Assembly: GCA_030653545.1 (NCBI GenBank)
Contig: JAURZE010000022.1
Span: forward strand, 310,001 to 374,000
Source: Nitrospira sp.
GTDB lineage: Bacteria; Nitrospirota; Nitrospiria; Nitrospirales; Nitrospiraceae
Length of the DNA: 64,000 nt
Direction of reading: 5' to 3'
The position numbers and the translations under genes are program-made. The notes below the pieces were generated by a model. That model was not told where the DNA came from, searched no databases, and worked only from the letters and a program-made list of their open reading frames with translations. Below, one piece after another: positions 40,982 through 54,546 of this stretch. Within the stretch, counting starts at the first letter, position 1. The number at the start of each line of letters is the position of its first letter.

Positions 40982-43060
40982 TCAGGCGGGAAGGATTTCT
41001 TCGATAGTGGCTCGCTCAAGACGTCCAAGATTCACCCATTGCTCAGCCATGGGGACTAACGTCTTCAAGCGCAGTTCTAGAGCTTCGAGGCGAATGGGTA
41101 ACGATGTCACCTTTCGGTACGCCGTGACCGTCAAGAAGGACTTCAAACCTTGGAGAAACATCATGATGGTCATCGCCTGAACCAATTTCGCCTGATCATG
41201 CAAGAACTCGACATGGTCAAGAATGGGATCAAGCTGAGACGCCGTGACGAAACTGGCGGCCTGCGCCCGAAGCGATGCAAGCGCCTCCGTCATTTTCGGG
41301 ACACGCAAGTGAACGGCCTGAAGAAACTCATTATCCTGCCGGTCCAAGTCGCGAAGGATACGCTCGATCGTAGCCACATCGACCGGCTGTTCGGCCTCAC
41401 CCACTTCTTCGGCACGATGGATCACCGCTTCCAACATATCGCGGGCCGGCTGCATCGATCTCGATCGAGCCTTCTGGAGCTCACGTAACGCACTTAATAA
41501 CGGGAGCGAGGACCATTCGCTGCTCGGTCCGCTGGGATGGAGGTCAGGCGTGGCCGGCTCCGCAGATTCGACAGCACCCGTCTCATCCGCATGCACCACG
41601 GGCGCTTCCCCGGGGCCGAATATCCGTTCATCTCCCGCTACGCTCTGGGACGGAACGGATGCCAACTGCCGGACCGCGGCAACGACACGATTCAAGCCGT
41701 GGTGTAGCTGACGCAACGACTCGGAAGCAACGGCCGTCTCTGCTCCACCGACGTCACGAAGCGCGGGCAACAGGTTCGTCGCCATCGATTCAATCTCATC
41801 AAGGTGCACCGTGCCCGCAGACTTCGCCAGATTCGTAATGCCGTTAAGGACAATCCCGTAAACATGCGAACGAACTGGCCCCTCTTTATCGGCACTGAGC
41901 CGTGCGAGCGCCGATTGAATTTGCGCCAGCCACTCATGCGCCTCTAGCGCAAATAAGCCCACGACTTCCTTGTCAAAGCCGGCGTCATCCTGACCCGGCG
42001 TCTCCGCAACGGCCTCTTGACCAGGGACAGCTTCAGATTTTCCCCCGACCACCGCGCCAGGATGCCGCGCATGTTCCACGACGCCTTGAATGGCAGTCGC
42101 AATGGCGTCCAGGCTCTCTAGAAGCGACGTAAACTGATCAGACGCCGCCCCCGGCACGGCCACGCTCGGAACCTCAGGCGAAAAGGTAAGACGACCGACC
42201 ACGGGAGCCTTGAGCGCTTCGATAATGCTCACCAGAGGAGTCAAACTAAGATTGATGTGCCGACTCTCGACGTGACCCGCCTCTCCCGATTCATCGACCT
42301 CCACGATCGGCCGTAACGGGTACTGCACATTCACTCCCACCACTATCCCGGTTTCTCCGGTCGTCAGTCGGACGGTGGTGCCGAGCGGGTACACCGACAG
42401 CTGCTCGACCAGCGCTTTGGTCATCTCCCGAGGAAACGTGGCTCGCTCTGCCACCAGCAACTCTTTGATCGCCTCATGCGGAAAAAGCCTGGGGCGATAC
42501 GGCCGTTCGCTGATCATCGCATCAAACACATCGGAGACGCCGATGATCAGCGCCATCTCGCTGATTTGGCGCCCTTTCAACCGATTCGGATACCCCAATC
42601 CGTTGGTGCGCTCATGAGCCTGGCGAATCAATTCCGCCAACCAGGTGTAGTCAGGCCCCGATCGCTTGATCGCCTCGAACCCCAGTTCTGGATGCTGTTC
42701 GATCAACGTCCGTTCGTCCGCCGTCAGTCGGCCGGCTTTCGTAACGAGCGATTGAGGGACCGCAAACAATCCGATGTCGTGCACCAGCCCGGCCAGCGCC
42801 AGACGCTCCAATTCGCGTCCGTAGTATCCCAGTCCCATCCCCACCTTCGTCGACACGACGGCCACGTTCACGAGGTTGGTCAAGAGCGGCGATCCCGACG
42901 GACTGGAGAGCGCCATGACGATCAATTCATCGCTGCGCTTCAACGATGCGACCAGCGAGGCTGCTAAAGCCTCGAGTCGATCGAGCTGAATGGTCCGTTG
43001 GCTTTGTATGGCCGAGGCAACAAGAGTCAGCTCGGCTTCTGCGTCCCTATACCATGTCAT
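40982..43060 (-). CDS. HD-GYP domain protein with Hpt-like and novel C-terminal domains
   Basis: The 692-residue protein has an HD-GYP fold (HD at 94/95 in LVHDIG, HPELG, GLGYP near 154-158, SDVFDAMISERPYRP). Key metal or catalytic residues are altered: HDIGK is HDIGL, HHE is AHE, and the early His is Asn (LLTNLVNV). A beta domain, then an Hpt-like region (FDKEVVGLFALEAHEWL) lacking the phospho-His, and a C-terminal domain (GLKSFLTVTAY to IEEILPA) follow. The last two are shared with the protein at 44008-44946. It may sense or bind cyclic di-GMP but not degrade it. It is the last gene of the chemosensory run. Confidence 0.82.
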   Translation of the reverse strand: MTWYRDAEAELTLVASAIQSQRTIQLDRLEALAASLVASLKRSDELIVMALSSPSGSPLLTNLVNVAVVSTKVGMGLGYYGRELERLALAGLVHDIGLFAVPQSLVTKAGRLTADERTLIEQHPELGFEAIKRSGPDYTWLAELIRQAHERTNGLGYPNRLKGRQISEMALIIGVSDVFDAMISERPYRPRLFPHEAIKELLVAERATFPREMTKALVEQLSVYPLGTTVRLTTGETGIVVGVNVQYPLRPIVEVDESGEAGHVESRHINLSLTPLVSIIEALKAPVVGRLTFSPEVPSVAVPGAASDQFTSLLESLDAIATAIQGVVEHARHPGAVVGGKSEAVPGQEAVAETPGQDDAGFDKEVVGLFALEAHEWLAQIQSALARLSADKEGPVRSHVYGIVLNGITNLAKSAGTVHLDEIESMATNLLPALRDVGGAETAVASESLRQLHHGLNRVVAAVRQLASVPSQSVAGDERIFGPGEAPVVHADETGAVESAEPATPDLHPSGPSSEWSSLPLLSALRELQKARSRSMQPARDMLEAVIHRAEEVGEAEQPVDVATIERILRDLDRQDNEFLQAVHLRVPKMTEALASLRAQAASFVTASQLDPILDHVEFLHDQAKLVQAMTIMMFLQGLKSFLTVTAYRKVTSLPIRLEALELRLKTLVPMAEQWVNLGRLERATIEEILPA

Positions 43061-43102
43061 GGAAACCCGTTCTCCCCTTCTCCCCAACCCGATTTGGTCG
43101 GT

Positions 43103-43933
43103 TTAACGCGGATCTGCGACGTGCAAAACCAGCGTCTGATCGATGCAATCAACTTTCCCTTGCGCTCCGCTGAACAAGCAGAGATCGCAGAGCGCGTTAA
43201 TCAAGCGGCAGACGCCGCCCGTGTGTCGATAAATCGCTTCCACCGCATCCACGGTAAAGAGCCTCCGCGTGCACCCTGCCGCAGCCAATCGGCCCTGAAT
43301 ATAGGTCTGCGTTTCTTCGACGTCAAACCGCTCCAGATGATACCGAACCGCAATCCGTTGCATCAGTTGCGGAATACGCGCCACCCGTTCTCGAAGTTCC
43401 GGCTGGCCAAGCAACACGAGCGTCAACAGAAACCGATCGTTCATCTGGTAATTCATCAAGAGCCGAACCTCGTCAAAGATCCGATCCTCAAGGATGGTCT
43501 GAGCCTCGTCGATGACGAGGACCGTATCGAGTTCCTGCCTGGCGTTCGATAGCAAATGCTCATTCAGACGCCTCAGCTGCACCGCTTTTGATCCACCGAC
43601 CGGCAATCCGAATTGATAGAGAATCTCGCCAAGAAATTGCTTTTCCGGGAGAGAAGGGTTTGCCAGCAAGGCCACGTCGAATTTCGACCTCGGTAAATTG
43701 AGAATCAGCGCACGGCTCAGGAGGGTCTTCCCGCTTCCAATCTCGCCGGTCAACATCACGGCGCCCTTTCGAGCCTGAATCCCATACAAAATCCGTTGGC
43801 GCGCCTCCTCATGTTTCACCGAGGGGACATAAAAGCGCGGATCGGGAACATTCTCAAACGGCTGGGCCTGCAGCCCCCAATGCTGTTCGTACGTATACGA
43901 TTCGGGCTCAGCAATCAACACATCGGGCTCCAT
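43103..43933 (-). CDS. ExeA-like AAA ATPase
   Basis: The 276-residue protein begins with YEQHWGLQAQPFENVPDPRFY, the usual start of ExeA/GspA ATPases. It has Walker A in LTGEIGSGKT, Walker B in VLVIDEAQT and a sensor region VLLGQPELRERV. ExeA helps assemble secretin and type II or type IV pilus parts. This one lacks the membrane helix and peptidoglycan-binding domain of full ExeA. It is set between two Hpt-like genes of the chemosensory cluster, so it may drive a localised machine under chemosensory control. Confidence 0.88.
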   Translation of the reverse strand: MEPDVLIAEPESYTYEQHWGLQAQPFENVPDPRFYVPSVKHEEARQRILYGIQARKGAVMLTGEIGSGKTLLSRALILNLPRSKFDVALLANPSLPEKQFLGEILYQFGLPVGGSKAVQLRRLNEHLLSNARQELDTVLVIDEAQTILEDRIFDEVRLLMNYQMNDRFLLTLVLLGQPELRERVARIPQLMQRIAVRYHLERFDVEETQTYIQGRLAAAGCTRRLFTVDAVEAIYRHTGGVCRLINALCDLCLFSGAQGKVDCIDQTLVLHVADPR

Positions 43934-44007
43934 TCCATCTTCGCTTTGCGAAGGAACCGGTTTGGGGAAGATTCAATGGTCGGCGAAACACAGCGGCACG
44001 GGAACCG

Positions 44008-44946
44008 CTACGCCGCGGGCAATAAGGCTTCAATGGCACCCCGCTCTCGTCGCCCAGCCTCTGCCCACGCGTGAATGATCGAAGGCATCGAACGCAATCG
44101 GGTCTCCACCTTCTTAAACTGAGCAGCCGGGAGCGGCACCCGCTGTTCCATCGCAATCGTGAGAAAGCTCTGCAGCCCGGTGAAGAACGTCATCGCGTCG
44201 ACCGCATTCACCTGTTGAGAGACAGACCAGAGTTCAGACGCGTGGTTGGCCACGGCACTCCACTCGCCGGATACCTCTTTCCATTGACCGATAGACGTTT
44301 GTGCCATCTTTCCGATGCCGTCGGCAACGAGCGGTCCAAGCCGCTGAACCGTCTCGGCATAGGCCTGCTCGACCTCGGCACCGCGCGCTAGCACCTCACG
44401 TAGCGACGCAGCGTCACAATGCGTCACTCCGTTTCTCATCATTCCGTCAATCTGCGCCATGATTGTTTTCGTCACGTGGCATGGCATAGCCGTACCGCCG
44501 CCCAGGCGACTGATCAGATCGGAGAGCGCGGTCAGGAACTCCTGTGCGGGCACCGTGACGGGCACCACCTCTTCTGTTGCGGACTCAGGATCAAACGCCA
44601 CACCGGTGGCCCTGGTCAGCGCATCGTGAATCTGGCCCAGTTGTTTGCACAGCGCCAGAAAAGCGGAGGCCGAGAGAGGGACGGACGGATCCTCTACCGC
44701 CTCAACCAAGGGAAGGCCGGAGAAACTGGCCTGCTCGACGTCGTGCAGATTAATCGTTGCGGCGGACCCGCCAAGATTTGCCAATCCGGCCTTGATGGTG
44801 TGCGCCAATTTCAGGTGACGGTCAGCCGGAGGCCCTTGTTGCAATTCATCAAGGGCCACATGAATCTGCTGCAACCACTCCTGCGCTTCCTGGGCAAACA
44901 GCGCAATTAACTCTTTTTGAAATTCATCGTCTGTATCGACTGCCAT
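44008..44946 (-). CDS. Hpt-like protein with novel C-terminal domain
   Basis: The 312-residue protein opens with an Hpt-like helix bundle (DEFQKELIALFAQEAQEWL, then KLAHTIKAGLANLGG with a possible phospho-His49). After a helical middle comes a C-terminal domain (GLQSFLTIAMEQR to AIEALLPAA) that matches the end of the HD-GYP protein at 40982-43060 (common points GLxSFLT, LP, E-RL, W, GR-ER, IE, LPA). It may accept phosphate from the CheA hybrid. Confidence 0.78.
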   Translation of the reverse strand: MAVDTDDEFQKELIALFAQEAQEWLQQIHVALDELQQGPPADRHLKLAHTIKAGLANLGGSAATINLHDVEQASFSGLPLVEAVEDPSVPLSASAFLALCKQLGQIHDALTRATGVAFDPESATEEVVPVTVPAQEFLTALSDLISRLGGGTAMPCHVTKTIMAQIDGMMRNGVTHCDAASLREVLARGAEVEQAYAETVQRLGPLVADGIGKMAQTSIGQWKEVSGEWSAVANHASELWSVSQQVNAVDAMTFFTGLQSFLTIAMEQRVPLPAAQFKKVETRLRSMPSIIHAWAEAGRRERGAIEALLPAA

Positions 44947-45000: not shown

Positions 45001-46380
45001 TTAATCCCGCCCTTTTCCACCACCGAGCTGAGAGGCCAATCCGGCTATTTCCCCGAGCTTCCGCGCCATATCTTCAAACCGCTTCATCGACTGTTCAGCT
45101 GATTGCTCAGATTCCGACACACGCCGTGCCAACACGGCATTCCGTTCCCGCTCGGTCGCCAAGAGCGTCTCGAACTCATGCGCCGCAGCCACCACTGCTT
45201 CCAACTCCTGAATACGGCTCTCTTTGGCATGAGTAGCCTGGGTCGCCGCGGCCAATTGGGTTTCCAGGTCTCTCAACCGCTGTACCTCACGTTCAGCCTC
45301 AGCAAGACGTCTGCTTACCTCCCCGATACGAGCCCGTTCAGCCGTCAGCGCGGCGTCCGCTTGCTTCACTTGCAGCTCTAAGTCGGCAGCGCGATGCTCT
45401 TCACGGGCTAACCGCGCTTCCAGATCTTTTGTTCGGGCCGCGGCAGCCTCTAAGACAGTCAATTGCTCGACCAGTTTTGCCGTGGCCGCTCGCTCGGCCA
45501 TCAGCGTGGATTCCAACTGAGGTACCGCACTGACGGCCTGCTGAAGATCGGCGACCTGCTGCCGAAAGCCCTGAGCAGAATCCTGCTCGGACTTCAACGC
45601 TGACTCGAGAGCCGATGTCTTCGCCTGCGCATCTGACAGCAACTCCTCACTGCTGGCAATCCGTGCCTTCAAAGACACAATCTGCTGCCGCTCTTGAACT
45701 AACTCAGCTTCTATGGCCTGCGCCCGGCTCGACTGATTGCTAGCTTCCTCAACATGGTGACGCTCGGCCGCAAGCTGGCCTTCCAGTTCCTTCGCCTGTG
45801 CCGCCAGCACCTCCAGTTCTCCTACACGTTTCTTGAGCCCCTCACCCTTCACCCTCTCGGCTTGCAACTGAGCATCAAGTTCACTGGCATGCGCCACTGC
45901 TTGTTTATAGGTCGCAAGCTGCTCATCAGTGATACGAGGACCGTTCCATACGTCGCCGGACGTCACCGGCTTGGGAACCGGCGCGGCAGGGGGAGGAGCC
46001 GCCACCGGCTCCTGGCGCTTTGCAAGCAGCTCCAAAACCCGATCCTTAAGCGAAGTTCCCTGAAACGGCTTTTTGAGCACCCCGTCCGCATGACAGGACT
46101 CAGCCTGTTTCGTCACCTCATCATTCACAATGCCTGAAATCAGCAATACCGGAGTTGTGGCCAGCGACGCATGCCCCCGCACAAACGCGCAGACTTCATA
46201 TCCGCTCTTGTCCGGCATGATCACGTCCGACACAATGACGTCCGGCCGTTCCTTCGACAAATACGCGAGCGCTTCTTCCCCATTGGCAGCTAACGTGACG
46301 CCGAGTCCGGCTTCCGTCAACAAGCGCTCCGCGACTTTTCTGACCGCAATACTGTCATCTGCTACAAGAATCTTCGGCAT
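45001..46380 (-). CDS. Response regulator receiver with long coiled coil
   Basis: The 459-residue protein has a CheY-like receiver (MPKILVADDSIAVRKVAERL, phospho-Asp in VSDVIMPDKSG, Lys in LKKPFQG), about residues 1-120. A short proline linker is followed by about 300 residues of coiled coil (heptads such as ELEVLAAQAKELEGQLAAER). It ends in a glycine-rich tail. The coil suggests a scaffold or localisation role, as in FrzS- or AglZ-like proteins of gliding bacteria. I start at 46380, after GAAGGGAG. Confidence 0.85.
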   Translation of the reverse strand: MPKILVADDSIAVRKVAERLLTEAGLGVTLAANGEEALAYLSKERPDVIVSDVIMPDKSGYEVCAFVRGHASLATTPVLLISGIVNDEVTKQAESCHADGVLKKPFQGTSLKDRVLELLAKRQEPVAAPPPAAPVPKPVTSGDVWNGPRITDEQLATYKQAVAHASELDAQLQAERVKGEGLKKRVGELEVLAAQAKELEGQLAAERHHVEEASNQSSRAQAIEAELVQERQQIVSLKARIASSEELLSDAQAKTSALESALKSEQDSAQGFRQQVADLQQAVSAVPQLESTLMAERAATAKLVEQLTVLEAAAARTKDLEARLAREEHRAADLELQVKQADAALTAERARIGEVSRRLAEAEREVQRLRDLETQLAAATQATHAKESRIQELEAVVAAAHEFETLLATERERNAVLARRVSESEQSAEQSMKRFEDMARKLGEIAGLASQLGGGKGRD

Positions 46381-46415
46381 ACTGACTCCCTTCACCTCTG
46401 TTCGTAACCATCAAC

Positions 46416-47456: not shown

Positions 47457-50400
47457 TTACTTCCGGGCCGTCGTCACCTGCCCGACCCATCGCTCGACCT
47501 CTTGAAGCAGCGCGCGTTCTTCCACCGGCTTAGCGATATATGAGCTGGCCCCGATATTGAGCGCCATCTGACGGTGCTTGTCCCCCGCACGCGTGGTCAT
47601 GACCACGACTGGGGTCTGCTGCGTCTGTGGCCGACTACGCAACGCCTGGATGACTTCCAATCCGTTCAACTTCGGCATCTCCAAATCTGTAAAAATCAAC
47701 CGGTAGGAATGCGCCGAGGCCTTCCGCAATCCATCTTCGCCATCTACCGCTGTATCGACCTGATACCCGGCATTTTCCAACATGCGTCCGACAAATTTCC
47801 GAATGCTCAGCGAATCGTCGATCAAGAGAATTGACGCCATCGCAGGGCCTTGGCCATCCGTACTTTGGCCCGCGTCCTGATGAGTCCCCACGGTCGTTTC
47901 CGGAGCCGCCAACATCGCGGCCGACTCCCGAGATTCCCGCGCGAGCAATCGTCCCGTATCCACCACGAGCACTACATGCCCTTCAGGATCGATCGTGGCC
48001 CCGCCGAAGCAGGAACGTTCCATCGAGCGTAATGTACCCAATGATTTAATGACGATTTCCTGGCGCCCCAACAACTCATCGACCGCCAGTCCGATCGGAC
48101 CAGAGACGGTGCGTACCACGACCACTGGCATGGAGATATCGACCATCCCGCTTTCCCGTCGGATCAAGTGGCGCAATGAATAGAGATCGATCGCCTCTTC
48201 GCCCATCTGCAAAATGGCCCGCTCCCCCATGTGCTGCAACGAGCCCACCGTCGGCATGGTGACCTCGCGCACGTTGGGCAATGGAATCGCATACCGCTCC
48301 GATCCCACTCGAACCATCAAAGCCGTCGCAATGAGCAGCGTCAGCGGCAAATCCAACGTAAACTTGGTGCCCACTCCGGGAAGCGACTCCACGTCGATAT
48401 GACCGTTCATCCCCTCTATCACCCGCTTGACCACATCGAGACCGACACCTCTCCCAGCCTGATCCCCCACCTTCTCCGCCGTCGAAAACCCTGGGGCAAA
48501 GATAAACTTCAACGCTTCGGCATCCGGCATCGCCTGAATCTGTTCCGGCCGAGCCAGCCCAAGATTCGCGGCTTTCGTCCGAATCCGTTTGAGATCGAGA
48601 CCCGCCCCGTCATCTTCCACTTCGATGATGATCGAGTTGCCTCGATGAGCGGCGTGCAAGTAGACCGTGCCAACCGCTGGTTTTCCTTTCGCCACTCGAG
48701 CGCCGGCGGGTTCAATGCCGTGGTACACCGCATTGCGCACAAGATGGACCAAGGGGTCGACGAGGCGCTCCACGACCCCCGTATCCACCTCGGTATGTTC
48801 ACCGGACGTCACCAGCGACACTTCTTTCCCTGAGGCACGGGCAATCTCCCGAATCGCTCGGCGGAACCGCGTAAACGGAGTCCCGATGGGAACCATGCGG
48901 GCACGCGCGATTTCATCCCGCATACCGAGGGTCAGCTGCTGCAACTGGCTCATATCATCATGGGATCGGCGGATGGATCCGCTCAGTTGCGACATCGATT
49001 CCGTAATATCAGCGGTCACCTCACTGATGCGTCTCGCCAGAATATTGAAATCGTCATACTTATCGAACTCCAGACTGCCGAAATCGCTTAAGCCAGCCAT
49101 GCCTGGAGCGACAGTCTCTGTGGAAGCTGCAGGAGTGGCCGGAAATGTGAACGTATGTTTCTCTTCAAACGATTGTACGGCATCGACCAGCCTGGATTTG
49201 CAGGCTAATACTTGTTGAGATAGCTGCTCTAACACCCGAAGACGCTGCTCTAACCGGCCTCGCCCAATGACCAATTCACCGACCAGATTCAGCAGTCGCT
49301 CTAGTCGGTCCCGGCTGACCCGAATCACTTCACGATCTTCTGCAGACCGTCCATCGGCGGCTTTGGGTTGAGCCGCTTCTTCATTGGGTCCGGCAGGCGC
49401 TGGCATGAGAGGAGTCGCAGCATCGTTCGAGACAACCGGCTCCATACTTGGGACACCGCCATCATGCAGAACTTTCAGCTCAGCGAGCGCGGAGGCGAAT
49501 CGGTGCTGAGTTGTCGCCAGAGTCGCAGGGTCACGGCGCATCAGCACGCGAACGACATCGACGGCTCGAAGCAATAAATCTGTCTGACCGGGCTGCACAG
49601 CCAAATGCCCGTCACGCACCGCTCCCATAAAGTCTTCAATGTGATGGACCAGATCGCCGATGGATTGAAACCCTACGGTATACGCAGACCCCTTGAGGGT
49701 ATGCGCAGTCCGGAACAATTGATTGATCAATTCGTCGTCCTGAACGTTCTTATCCAGCCGCAGGAGATTGGCCTCAAGCGTTTCCAAATACTCCTGGGCC
49801 TCCGGGGCAAAGTAAGACAGCACCTCGGGATCCAGTTGCGGAATCAAATACTCAGCCGATAGCACCGGGCTCGCCGCCGCTTCGCCATCGACTGTCGCCG
49901 CACCTGAAGGCGCCGTCGCTACCTGAACAACCGAAGAAGGTGATGGCGCGACCACGACTGCCTCACCATCCCGCAACTGCGTCAGGAAGTTAATCACAGC
50001 CGGCACATCATGCTGTAATTGCGGTACATAGGTTGGATCTCGCCGCAGTGCCAGCCGAATAATGCCAACCGCACGGGTCAATCCCTCGAAGAGCGCGTCG
50101 CTCAGCTGAATCCGTCGTTCACGAACCTTCCCCATACACTCTTCCATGGGATAGGCAATATCGCCGATGACGGTAAAGCCAACCGTATGGCCTGATCCTT
50201 TCAAGGTATGAGCCGTTCTAAAGAGTCGGTAGATCGCATCCTCGTCGTGTGGGTGAGCCTGCAAATTCCGAATCAGGCTATCAATCGTATCCAGGTATTC
50301 CAATGCCTCGGGGACGAAGTAGGACAACACTTCCGCATCCACGTTTGGCACAAGATAATCCTGACTCACTTGAGCGCCATCTCCGAAATCCCGTGCACCG

Positions 50401-50828
50401 CCATCGGTGATAGAGGCCACCTGACCGGTGGTTTCAGCGAGGAGAAACCCATCGGACACGGCCAGGCATCGATCGATCGTCACCTGATCTTCACCCCCAC
50501 CTTGTCCGATCACATCGAGCTGCAGCTGGACGCCCTGCACAATTTCCCGCATCGCACCAACGGCGCGAAGCCAGTCCGTCTCAGGAACCATGTGACTCTG
50601 CTCAAACAACGATTCCAGCCGCTCGCTTAACTGTGCGATGCCGGCAAATCCATAGAGCGCCGCAGCCCCTCGAATCCGGTGAGCCACAATGAATTGCTCA
50701 TGCAATTCTTGCGGACTTGGGACGGACCCATCGACTGGATGTAAGGCGCGCTTGAGCTCGGCCATGCCATCGACGGCCTCGGCCACAAAAATGGCCATCA
50801 GATTGTCCGGATCAAATTCAGCGCTCAT
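47457..50828 (-). CDS. Hybrid CheA histidine kinase with three Hpt domains and a C-terminal receiver
   Basis: The 1123-residue kinase has Hpt domains with histidines at residues 50 (AHRIRGAA), 207 (AHTLKGSG) and 376 (AHTLKGSA). A dimerisation helix follows, then an ATP-binding domain (HLVRNAVYHGIEPAG, DDGAGL, GRGVGLDVVKRVIEGMNG), a CheW-like domain (ALMVRVGSERYAIPLPNVREV) and a receiver (phospho-Asp in FTDLEMPKLNG, Lys in IAKPVEER). The several Hpt domains and receiver resemble ChpA/PilL of type IV pilus systems. It lies between the MCP and CheW genes. Confidence 0.95.
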   Translation of the reverse strand: MSAEFDPDNLMAIFVAEAVDGMAELKRALHPVDGSVPSPQELHEQFIVAHRIRGAAALYGFAGIAQLSERLESLFEQSHMVPETDWLRAVGAMREIVQGVQLQLDVIGQGGGEDQVTIDRCLAVSDGFLLAETTGQVASITDGGARDFGDGAQVSQDYLVPNVDAEVLSYFVPEALEYLDTIDSLIRNLQAHPHDEDAIYRLFRTAHTLKGSGHTVGFTVIGDIAYPMEECMGKVRERRIQLSDALFEGLTRAVGIIRLALRRDPTYVPQLQHDVPAVINFLTQLRDGEAVVVAPSPSSVVQVATAPSGAATVDGEAAASPVLSAEYLIPQLDPEVLSYFAPEAQEYLETLEANLLRLDKNVQDDELINQLFRTAHTLKGSAYTVGFQSIGDLVHHIEDFMGAVRDGHLAVQPGQTDLLLRAVDVVRVLMRRDPATLATTQHRFASALAELKVLHDGGVPSMEPVVSNDAATPLMPAPAGPNEEAAQPKAADGRSAEDREVIRVSRDRLERLLNLVGELVIGRGRLEQRLRVLEQLSQQVLACKSRLVDAVQSFEEKHTFTFPATPAASTETVAPGMAGLSDFGSLEFDKYDDFNILARRISEVTADITESMSQLSGSIRRSHDDMSQLQQLTLGMRDEIARARMVPIGTPFTRFRRAIREIARASGKEVSLVTSGEHTEVDTGVVERLVDPLVHLVRNAVYHGIEPAGARVAKGKPAVGTVYLHAAHRGNSIIIEVEDDGAGLDLKRIRTKAANLGLARPEQIQAMPDAEALKFIFAPGFSTAEKVGDQAGRGVGLDVVKRVIEGMNGHIDVESLPGVGTKFTLDLPLTLLIATALMVRVGSERYAIPLPNVREVTMPTVGSLQHMGERAILQMGEEAIDLYSLRHLIRRESGMVDISMPVVVVRTVSGPIGLAVDELLGRQEIVIKSLGTLRSMERSCFGGATIDPEGHVVLVVDTGRLLARESRESAAMLAAPETTVGTHQDAGQSTDGQGPAMASILLIDDSLSIRKFVGRMLENAGYQVDTAVDGEDGLRKASAHSYRLIFTDLEMPKLNGLEVIQALRSRPQTQQTPVVVMTTRAGDKHRQMALNIGASSYIAKPVEERALLQEVERWVGQVTTARK

Positions 50829-50878: not shown

Positions 50879-52765
50879 CTACACCAGTTTGAATTGCGAC
50901 ACAGAGGCCGTCAGCGTTTCAGCGAGTTTTGCCATATCTTCTACGGTGACTCGCGCGGAATCCGTGGCTTTCTGCGTGGCCACCGCGCCGCCGGTAAAGT
51001 CCTTAATCGAGCGTCCCACCTTATCGGTCGAAGCGGTCTGCTCAACCGCAGAGGATGCGATGCTCTGCGCCAGCTCGGATGAACGCTGGGCGATCGTAGA
51101 AATTTCCTTGAACACGTCACCCGTACGCAACGCAGAAGCCGACCCCGCTTCCACGGCCTGAGTTTCATGTTCCATCGCGACCACGGCATCCTGCGTTTCA
51201 CTTTGAATCACTTTCACAAGGTCCGCAATTTCCCGCGTGGCCTGGGTGGAGCTTTCCGCGAGCTTTCTCACCTGGTCGGCGACGACGGCGAATCGGGCGC
51301 CCGCTTCACCGGCGCCGGCGGCCTCGATGGCCGCGTTCAAAGCCAGCAGGTTGGTCTGATTGGCAATATCCCGAATCGTCGACACGATCTGTGAAATTTC
51401 CAACGACCGGTCGCCAAGGGCTTTCACCTGTTTCGACATACGTTGCACCGCAGCGCGGATACTCTGCATGTCCTGCACGGTTTCTTGGACCGCCACGCGA
51501 CCGCGCTCGGTCGCTTGCAACACTTGGCGGGCCGATTCAGAAGACGCCCCGGCGGTTTCAGCGACCTGCCGCATCGATGCCGCCAACTGTTCAACCGCGC
51601 CCAGCGTCTTGACGGATTCGTCGGCTTGATGCTTCGCCGTACCGGCCATCTGTCCGGCGTTGTCTCTCAGCGTCCCGGCTGATTTATTTACCCGTTCAGC
51701 CGCTTCACGCACTTGGCGCATCAACTGCGCGAACCGCTGAATCATGAGATTGAATCCGTCGGCCAAGTTTCCAAACATATCCGCCGTGACTTCTCCGCGC
51801 TTGGTCAGGTCTCCTTTACCGACGTCGGACACCAACACAAGGAATTGCATCAGGCGCTTTTGCATCACGTCTCGCTCTTCCTCGGTGGACACAAGAGCCG
51901 TAATACGATCCAACATCGAGTTGAACGCTTTCGCCATGTGGCCCACCTCGTCGTCGCTCTCGAGCTTCGCGCGGGCCTGGAGGTTACCCGCAGCGGCTTG
52001 CTCGGCGACATCGGCCACGTGCACAATGTTTCGTGCAATATATCGGGCCAGGTAGTAACCGATTGTGCCTCCGAACAGGAGCGCAATAAGGCCTCCGAAC
52101 AACACCAAATTCGTGCTGCGCGTCGCTTCGGCCTGTCCGCTCTCGTTCAGCTCTTTGGCCAATTCTCGAATCGTGGTCATCAACTCTCGCACACGCAGCG
52201 TGGCCGTGCTGTACTTGTTCGCGACTTCGACGGAGAGGGCCAGGTTACCCAGGTCTCGCATGCTCTGCTTCTGATCTTCGGAGAGTGACGCGGAGTAACT
52301 ATCAGCAAAAGCGCTGACGGCACCGTCGGTTGACACGAAATATTCAGCCAACGCGGTCTTCAACGCAGCAATATCCTTCCCTTCGTTTCGGCCCGTCGCC
52401 GACTCGCGGAACTCCGACCCCTGATAGGCTTGCAAGGGTTCCAATGTCTGTTTTTTGAGAACGGCCAGCGGCGCGATCGCATCGTCAAAGTCGCTCTTCC
52501 GTGACTGGCGGCCGGCGTTCAGCAGCGCGTCATGATACAGACCGAGGTTCGTACTGCTGACTCCGGTGTTCGACAGCGCGACCGTTGATCCGTCGTAAAT
52601 ATTCTGCAGCTCAGCTTTTAGCCGGCTCAAACCGATAAGACCCACGAGACCGACCATGATCATGATGACACCGACGGCAGAGAATCCGAGAATCAACTTC
52701 GGCAGTGTTTTGAGATTATTGAACCACGTCTGAATCGTCCACGCTGACTTGCTGTGCCTCGCCAT
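50879..52765 (-). CDS. Methyl-accepting chemotaxis protein
   Basis: The 628-residue receptor has two transmembrane helices ([40 protein letters not shown]), a helical periplasmic domain of about 160 residues between them, a HAMP domain and a long cytoplasmic coiled hairpin with the tip [21 protein letters not shown]. No CheR-binding pentapeptide is present at the end (FKLV). The cluster lacks cheR and cheB, so adaptation by methylation may be absent or supplied from elsewhere. Confidence 0.95.
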
Positions 52766-53811: not shown

Positions 53812-54546
53812 CTACCGCATCGGCACCACGACGCTGATTGCGCCGGCCAGATCTCCCTCTTTCCATCCTTCTTTTCTCGTTCCGGTAATATCCCGTTCCC
53901 CTTTCGGCCCCCCATGGCAGGTGAGACAGGTCGGGCCGGCATATTCAGGATCCATGACACGCATCACCGGCTTGCCCCCGACCATCGTGGCCTTCGCATA
54001 TTGTTGTCCCTTCGGATGGCGGGAATCGCCGAACATTCGAAGTACTTCCGCCTCAAAATCATCCGGCTTGTTGCCAGGGTAACGATAGTCGGTTCCCGTT
54101 AATTTCAATCGAATGCCGGTTTTCTTGTAGAATTTTTCCCCTGACTTTCGAGCGAACACCGCTGGAATAAATCCCTTGAAGGCAACGCCCTGCTTATTGA
54201 TCACCGGCTGGCCTTCCAACACCACTTCACGTTCCGCTTCGAGCAATGCCAGGAGGACGGCGCTCTGCGGGACTCCATTCGGGCGACTCAGATCCACGCG
54301 CGTCTTCGCTTTAAATTTCTCAATGACCTGATGGGCCATGAATTCGTCCGTGAATCCCTTATTGCCTTTGCTGGGATCGTTAATCAGTGCCTGATGTTCC
54401 GACACCACCGCGCGACCTGATTTCAGCAGTGCAATCAGCAATTCCGCTGTCTCACTCTCATCGCCTGCGCGAGCGAACGATGGCGCCCCTATCACCGTCG
54501 CACACATCGCCGCACCAAGCATGAGTGATGTTAACTGTGCCTTCAT
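53812..54546 (-). CDS. Periplasmic DUF3365 (Tll0287-like) protein with one heme c motif
   Basis: The 244-residue protein has a signal peptide (ending about SFARAGDES) and a DUF3365 domain. Near the end is one heme c motif CLTCHGGPKGERD, followed by AGAISVVVPM. Proteins of this family bind heme c and often act as sensor domains. It is the first gene in the minus-strand run of chemosensory genes, so it may be the periplasmic redox or ligand sensor of the system. That link rests on position. Confidence 0.85.
   Translation of the reverse strand: MKAQLTSLMLGAAMCATVIGAPSFARAGDESETAELLIALLKSGRAVVSEHQALINDPSKGNKGFTDEFMAHQVIEKFKAKTRVDLSRPNGVPQSAVLLALLEAEREVVLEGQPVINKQGVAFKGFIPAVFARKSGEKFYKKTGIRLKLTGTDYRYPGNKPDDFEAEVLRMFGDSRHPKGQQYAKATMVGGKPVMRVMDPEYAGPTCLTCHGGPKGERDITGTRKEGWKEGDLAGAISVVVPMR

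Follow-up and report, generated by a model that had tools for sequence, protein, structure and literature searches.

The window, which is the whole analysed stretch of 64,000 nucleotides from a Nitrospira genome (contig JAURZE010000022.1), carries a chemosensory gene cluster that ends with the genes of two proteins, P0001 and P0002. The genes of this region discussed below are the following.

40982..43087, reverse strand: P0001, a fusion of HD-GYP and a tandem pseudo-Hpt module (open reading frame; likely start ATG at 43060)
43103..43933, reverse strand: AAA ATPase of the ExeA/XrtA-associated type, between the P0001 and P0002 genes (TIGR03015, 213 bits, under its cut-off)
44008..44946, reverse strand: P0002, a stand-alone tandem pseudo-Hpt protein of 312 aa (translation; AF2 model, mean pLDDT 87.8)
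45001..46395, reverse strand: response regulator with a long C-terminal coiled coil, neighbour of P0002 (Response_reg, E 4.6e-22)
47457..50828, reverse strand: ChpA-like CheA with three Hpt domains (domain scan)
50879..52765, reverse strand: chemoreceptor (4HB, HAMP and MCPsignal) in the same operon as CheA (domain scan)

Both open reading frames lie where the original prediction had placed them. The likely true start of P0001 is the ATG at 43060, which is preceded by GGAGAA, and P0001 orthologs start alike (MTTWY in locus L053). The cluster is ordered as small response regulator, CheW, chemoreceptor, ChpA-like CheA, two CheWs, coiled-coil response regulator, P0002, the ATPase where present, and the HD-GYP protein. 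This order is kept across Nitrospiraceae, and in a neighbouring family only as far as the pseudo-Hpt gene, which is a core gene of the ChpA-type chemosensory operon in Nitrospiraceae and this one neighbouring family. The coiled-coil regulator gene adjoins the pseudo-Hpt gene on the same strand, mostly with a spacing of ~55 bp (59 loci). The coiled-coil tail of the regulator at 45001-46395 comprises some 300 residues; the regulator is conserved beside the pseudo-Hpt gene and varies in length (about 226-574 aa by open reading frame). The ATPase is a variable member of the operon, present in 23 of the 57 loci holding a P0002-type gene according to ORF/BLAST labelling. This patchy occurrence does not support the ExeA-like ATPase, which had been considered as a partner of the two proteins, in an obligate role. 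P0001 and P0002 may still compete for one partner, as had also been suggested. In many relatives, the chemosensory genes are preceded by the gene of a protein that looks exported and has a haem-type CLTCH motif (53812-54546); we take this protein to be DUF3365-like, and it could possibly provide a redox or haem input. Since both two PilT-family ATPases and a flagellin are encoded in the same genome, the motility output of the cluster cannot be told.

BLASTP aligned 80 C-terminal residues of P0001 and P0002 without gaps at 33% identity (E 2e-11), and the aligned segment contains AMT, GLxSFLT, W, GRxER and IExxLPA. The shared C terminus described from these motifs is thus real, but its extent had been put at 65-110 residues, whereas the homology spans the whole Hpt-like protein: the ortholog profiles A1 (36 rows) and A2 (13 rows) align over 307 columns in a profile-profile comparison (E 7.4e-38). 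A search of its own genome with P0002 returned only P0002 itself and two stretches of P0001, matching P0002 residues 6-108 and 179-311. According to these alignments, the resemblance between the two proteins is far above chance and covers about 310 residues, that is, all of P0002.

The AF2 models of P0002 and of the fusion's tail (mean pLDDT 79.3 for the latter) both show two four-helix units, and the bundles were placed as follows.

44599..44925, reverse strand: Hpt-like bundle at the N terminus of P0002, residues ~8-116 (hhalign, PDB profiles, VIA)
44011..44412, reverse strand: diverged Hpt-like bundle at the C terminus of P0002, residues ~179-312 (Pfam Hpt in relatives; hhalign to its own N-domain)
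41657..41989, reverse strand: N-terminal pseudo-Hpt of P0001, residues ~367-477 (own-genome search, profile alignment, AF2 model)
40985..41380, reverse strand: C-terminal pseudo-Hpt of P0001, residues ~570-701 (BLASTP, profile alignment, AF2 model, VIA)

Profile alignment indicates that the pseudo-Hpt module is homologous to the Hpt domains carried by the ChpA-like CheA of this cluster. The N-terminal bundle of P0002 matched the Hpt domains of the neighbouring CheA in hhalign (97.9%, E 5e-13) and CheA P1 among the PDB profiles (2ld6/1tqg), could be superimposed on 1tqg by VIA (Z 13.7, rmsd 2.4, 105 aligned), and keeps the GSA motif of Hpt domains. The C-terminal domain of the window proteins was left unnamed by the Pfam and NCBIfam scans, and P0002 had no match in the NCBIfam scan. 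Its match to Hpt is insignificant for the window protein by itself and rests on relatives and profiles. When the C terminus alone was scanned in 56 relatives, Pfam Hpt matched in 10 (best E 2.4e-6), and two single-copy relatives passed the curated cut-off of Pfam Hpt (PF01627, 24.6 bits) with 28.1 and 25.5 bits over nearly the full profile. In hhalign, the C-terminal profile also aligned with the N-terminal Hpt of the same family along 98 collinear columns (69% probability, score 32.0), while the top score among 55 control segments from the region's other proteins was, outside the CheA Hpt region, 27.1 over 33 columns. Residues 216-335 of the fusion-tail model were superimposed by VIA on 2lch, a designed four-helix protein that we take to be derived from CheA P1, with a Z of 11.4 (rmsd 4.1, 113 aligned), a value that is indecisive for helical bundles. 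Foldseek by itself returned no PDB match with E < 0.001 and both VIA lists were taken up by the N-terminal bundle, so sequence profiles were the main basis for assessing the C-terminal bundle. A second, strongly diverged Hpt domain is by far the best interpretation of the C-terminal domain. The domain described as unrecognised in the original prediction would accordingly be a degenerate Hpt, and a new kind of domain is rejected in view of the above-cut-off Pfam matches in relatives.

The module has the fold, the GSA motif and the chemosensory-operon setting in common with Hpt (PF01627) and CheA P1. Unlike them, it has no phospho-His in either bundle and has largely lost the Lys. The register of the phospho-site in P0002 was fixed by the GSA motif, with AHTLKGSA of the CheA Hpt domains aligning with LANLGGSA. 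Among 152 aligned Hpt domains from the neighbouring CheAs, 150 have His in the phospho-His column; in the 88 sequences of the family, by contrast, neither column 56 nor column 237 ever holds a His. The aligned site in the N-terminal bundle, residue 56 of P0002, is Ala in the window and Thr or Ser in 76 of 87 relatives; that in the C-terminal bundle, residue 237, is Ser in P0002 and mostly Ala, Ser, Glu or Asp elsewhere. At column 59, most sequences have Gly, Ala or Met in place of the Hpt Lys. Judged from the aligned sequences, both bundles are pseudo-Hpt domains, each having lost its phosphorylatable histidine. A candidate phospho-His had been proposed for P0002 at the following codon.

44800..44802, reverse strand: codon of His49 of P0002, which is not the aligned phospho-site and lies seven residues upstream of it

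This proposal does not hold: besides being off-site, position 49 is His in only 9 of 50 P0002 orthologs (Gln in 24) and in none of 26 fused copies or 12 single-copy relatives, and two close relatives have Ser or Tyr there. Alignment register and poor conservation together rule against an active Hpt domain operating through His49.

The N-terminal part of P0001 contains two further features.

42392..42877, reverse strand: HD-GYP domain of P0001, residues ~71-232 (Pfam HD_5, E 2.6e-25; alignments to 4mcw and orthologs)
42071..42142, reverse strand: linker SDQFTSLLESLDAIATAIQGVVEH of P0001, residues 316-339, after the HD-GYP domain and conserved in relatives

Compared with PmGH (4mcw), five of the eight metal ligands are retained (H221, D222, H250, H277 and D305), while E185 corresponds to L68, H189 to N71 (48/48 relatives) and H276 to A157 (Ala 44, Val 3 and Glu 1 among 48). 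This three-ligand loss is found in nearly all 48 relatives examined, free-standing HD-GYP proteins included. The HD, Lys, HPxxG and GYP motifs and the D305 position, which P0001 has in common with PmGH and RpfG, are retained in 47-48 of the 48, with the four motifs counted in 48 of 48; the lost E185, H189 and H276 equivalents and the C-terminal pseudo-Hpt fusion set P0001 apart from these two enzymes. Standard activity is doubtful because three of eight metal ligands are missing, and Ala substitution in PmGH abolished activity at H189 or H276 and reduced it at E185 (PMC4159591). However, the equivalents of E185 and H189 are also missing from RpfG, which is an active phosphodiesterase, so that a loss of activity in P0001 is uncertain. 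We infer that the HD-GYP domain of P0001 is not a standard phosphodiesterase but a weak enzyme, a binuclear one or a receptor for c-di-GMP, and it may sense c-di-GMP instead of degrading it. DvhD likewise has an HD-GYP domain missing key metal ligands, which binds c-di-GMP without cleaving it (PMC13090378), but DvhD is a membrane receptor with dCache/PAS, whereas P0001 is devoid of these parts and its gene lies with those of a chemosensory array. Elsewhere in the same genome, another HD-GYP protein, free and 339 aa long (L081, G000:C22:415903-416757), is 42% identical, reads EHERWDGSGYP and also lacks the first His of the HH pair.

Orthologs of P0002 were found in 32 of the 34 same-genus relatives searched, and the closest named matches of P0001 were Nitrospira MAGs with 86-91% identity. 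The genome-wide scan with P0001, which reaches close relatives only, gave matches only in Nitrospira/Nitrospiraceae. When 295 genomes of the phylum were searched, full-length members occurred only in two families (f1 and f2), the remaining matches being short and mostly Hpt regions within longer proteins; tblastn searches of plasmids found no relatives. The 13 queried genomes without an intact P0002 also had no full-length copy of the operon's CheA, with a partial, interrupted match in one of them (G045). Locus L053 was considered as a case without CheA and rejected, the apparent absence being due to scaffolds joined through a stretch of N and not to a real loss. A broken pseudo-Hpt remnant with an internal stop (L131; G157 contig C1, about 115148-115494) lies between CobQ fragments and an AtpI-like gene in a 2.0 Mb genome of the same genus, which is without the chemosensory operon.

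In a tree of 88 copies, all fused copies formed a single clade that also included one split copy (L067). The single-copy relatives (family f2; genera g13, g16 and g20), which hold one gene at the same operon position, grouped outside this clade, and the stand-alone copies from two-copy genomes fell elsewhere than both groups. The tree does not by itself define its root; when the single-copy group is taken as the outgroup, the best-fitting history has one duplication, one fusion and later losses of the fused half. The clustering of the fused copies and the single gene of the single-copy relatives bear out the earlier suggestion of a duplication with one copy joined to HD-GYP. In genus g21 (L129, on a long branch), a free HD-GYP protein of 360 aa is encoded within the operon of a single pseudo-Hpt protein, and the linker helix motif SDxFTxLLESLDAIAxxIQxVVE is common to fused and free HD-GYP proteins.

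We propose, with a probability of roughly 0.6, that the tandem pseudo-Hpt module is an adaptor that docks on receiver domains and ties the ChpA-type array to c-di-GMP. Such a module would be blind to phosphorylation, as a FimL-like docking adaptor. Its targets would be receiver domains of response regulators encoded in the operon, the likeliest partner being the adjacent coiled-coil regulator, which is suggested by gene adjacency, though adjacency is not proof of binding. The bound regulators could thereby be held or sequestered at the array. The tree and synteny support a history in which a single ancestral gene underwent duplication and one of the copies became fused behind HD-GYP, and this fused copy might carry a c-di-GMP-responsive domain to the array via the same docking surface. 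FimL of the Pseudomonas aeruginosa Pil-Chp system carries Gln at the acceptor site of each of its two Hpt-like domains and is unlikely to act as a standard phosphate relay (PMC3019171); it recruits, together with ChpA, the regulator PilG to the pole (PMC10519157). Like the module, FimL combines two Hpt-like domains lacking the acceptor His with a ChpA-type system and a tie to second-messenger control, which for the module is our proposal, the likeness being drawn from published descriptions of FimL (PMC3019171, PMC10519157). The two differ in that FimL is linked to cAMP and FimV, whereas the Nitrospira gene lies inside the chemosensory operon and is duplicated, with one copy fused to HD-GYP.

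Instead of a passive dock, the module could be a CheZ-like phosphatase of receiver domains or a phosphate-sink controller. All-helical bundles, the adjacent response-regulator gene and the acidic residue at the second site (column 237) in 25 of 26 fused copies would suit this function, but neither site holds an invariant catalytic polar residue across the 88 sequences and phosphatase families were unmatched in the Pfam and NCBIfam scans, so we consider it unlikely. It is also improbable that the C-terminal bundle serves dimerisation or some other contact, is unrelated to Hpt and merely looks like a four-helix bundle. Helical bundles resemble many unrelated folds at middling Z, and the most conserved residues of the C-terminal bundle (F254, G257, W294, G298 and E301) lie in helices 3-4, away from the site helix; the collinear profile match to the N-terminal domain and the above-cut-off Pfam Hpt matches in relatives speak against this explanation. 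ChpA carries Thr and Ser versions of Hpt domains, and the Hpt fold with Thr or Ser at the aligned N-terminal site of most relatives would allow an active phosphotransfer intermediate of the Tpt/Spt type or through His49, but the off-site, unconserved His49, Ala56 of P0002 and the mostly replaced Lys make this highly improbable.

The docking-adaptor reading can be extended to the fusion protein, which would then be a c-di-GMP receptor whose tail competes with the stand-alone copy and the kinase's Hpt domains for the same receivers. We regard this extension as tentative and rather doubtful; if it is true, it would constitute a direct, phosphorylation-independent input of c-di-GMP into a chemosensory array. 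With the present assignment, two Nitrospira proteins left largely blank by Pfam and NCBIfam gain an annotation. Pseudo-Hpt chemosensory scaffolds are known chiefly from FimL, and the module may represent a second case, in another phylum. As a core operon gene that was fused to HD-GYP in one lineage, it would illustrate one way in which such arrays might be coupled to a second messenger with no phosphotransfer involved.
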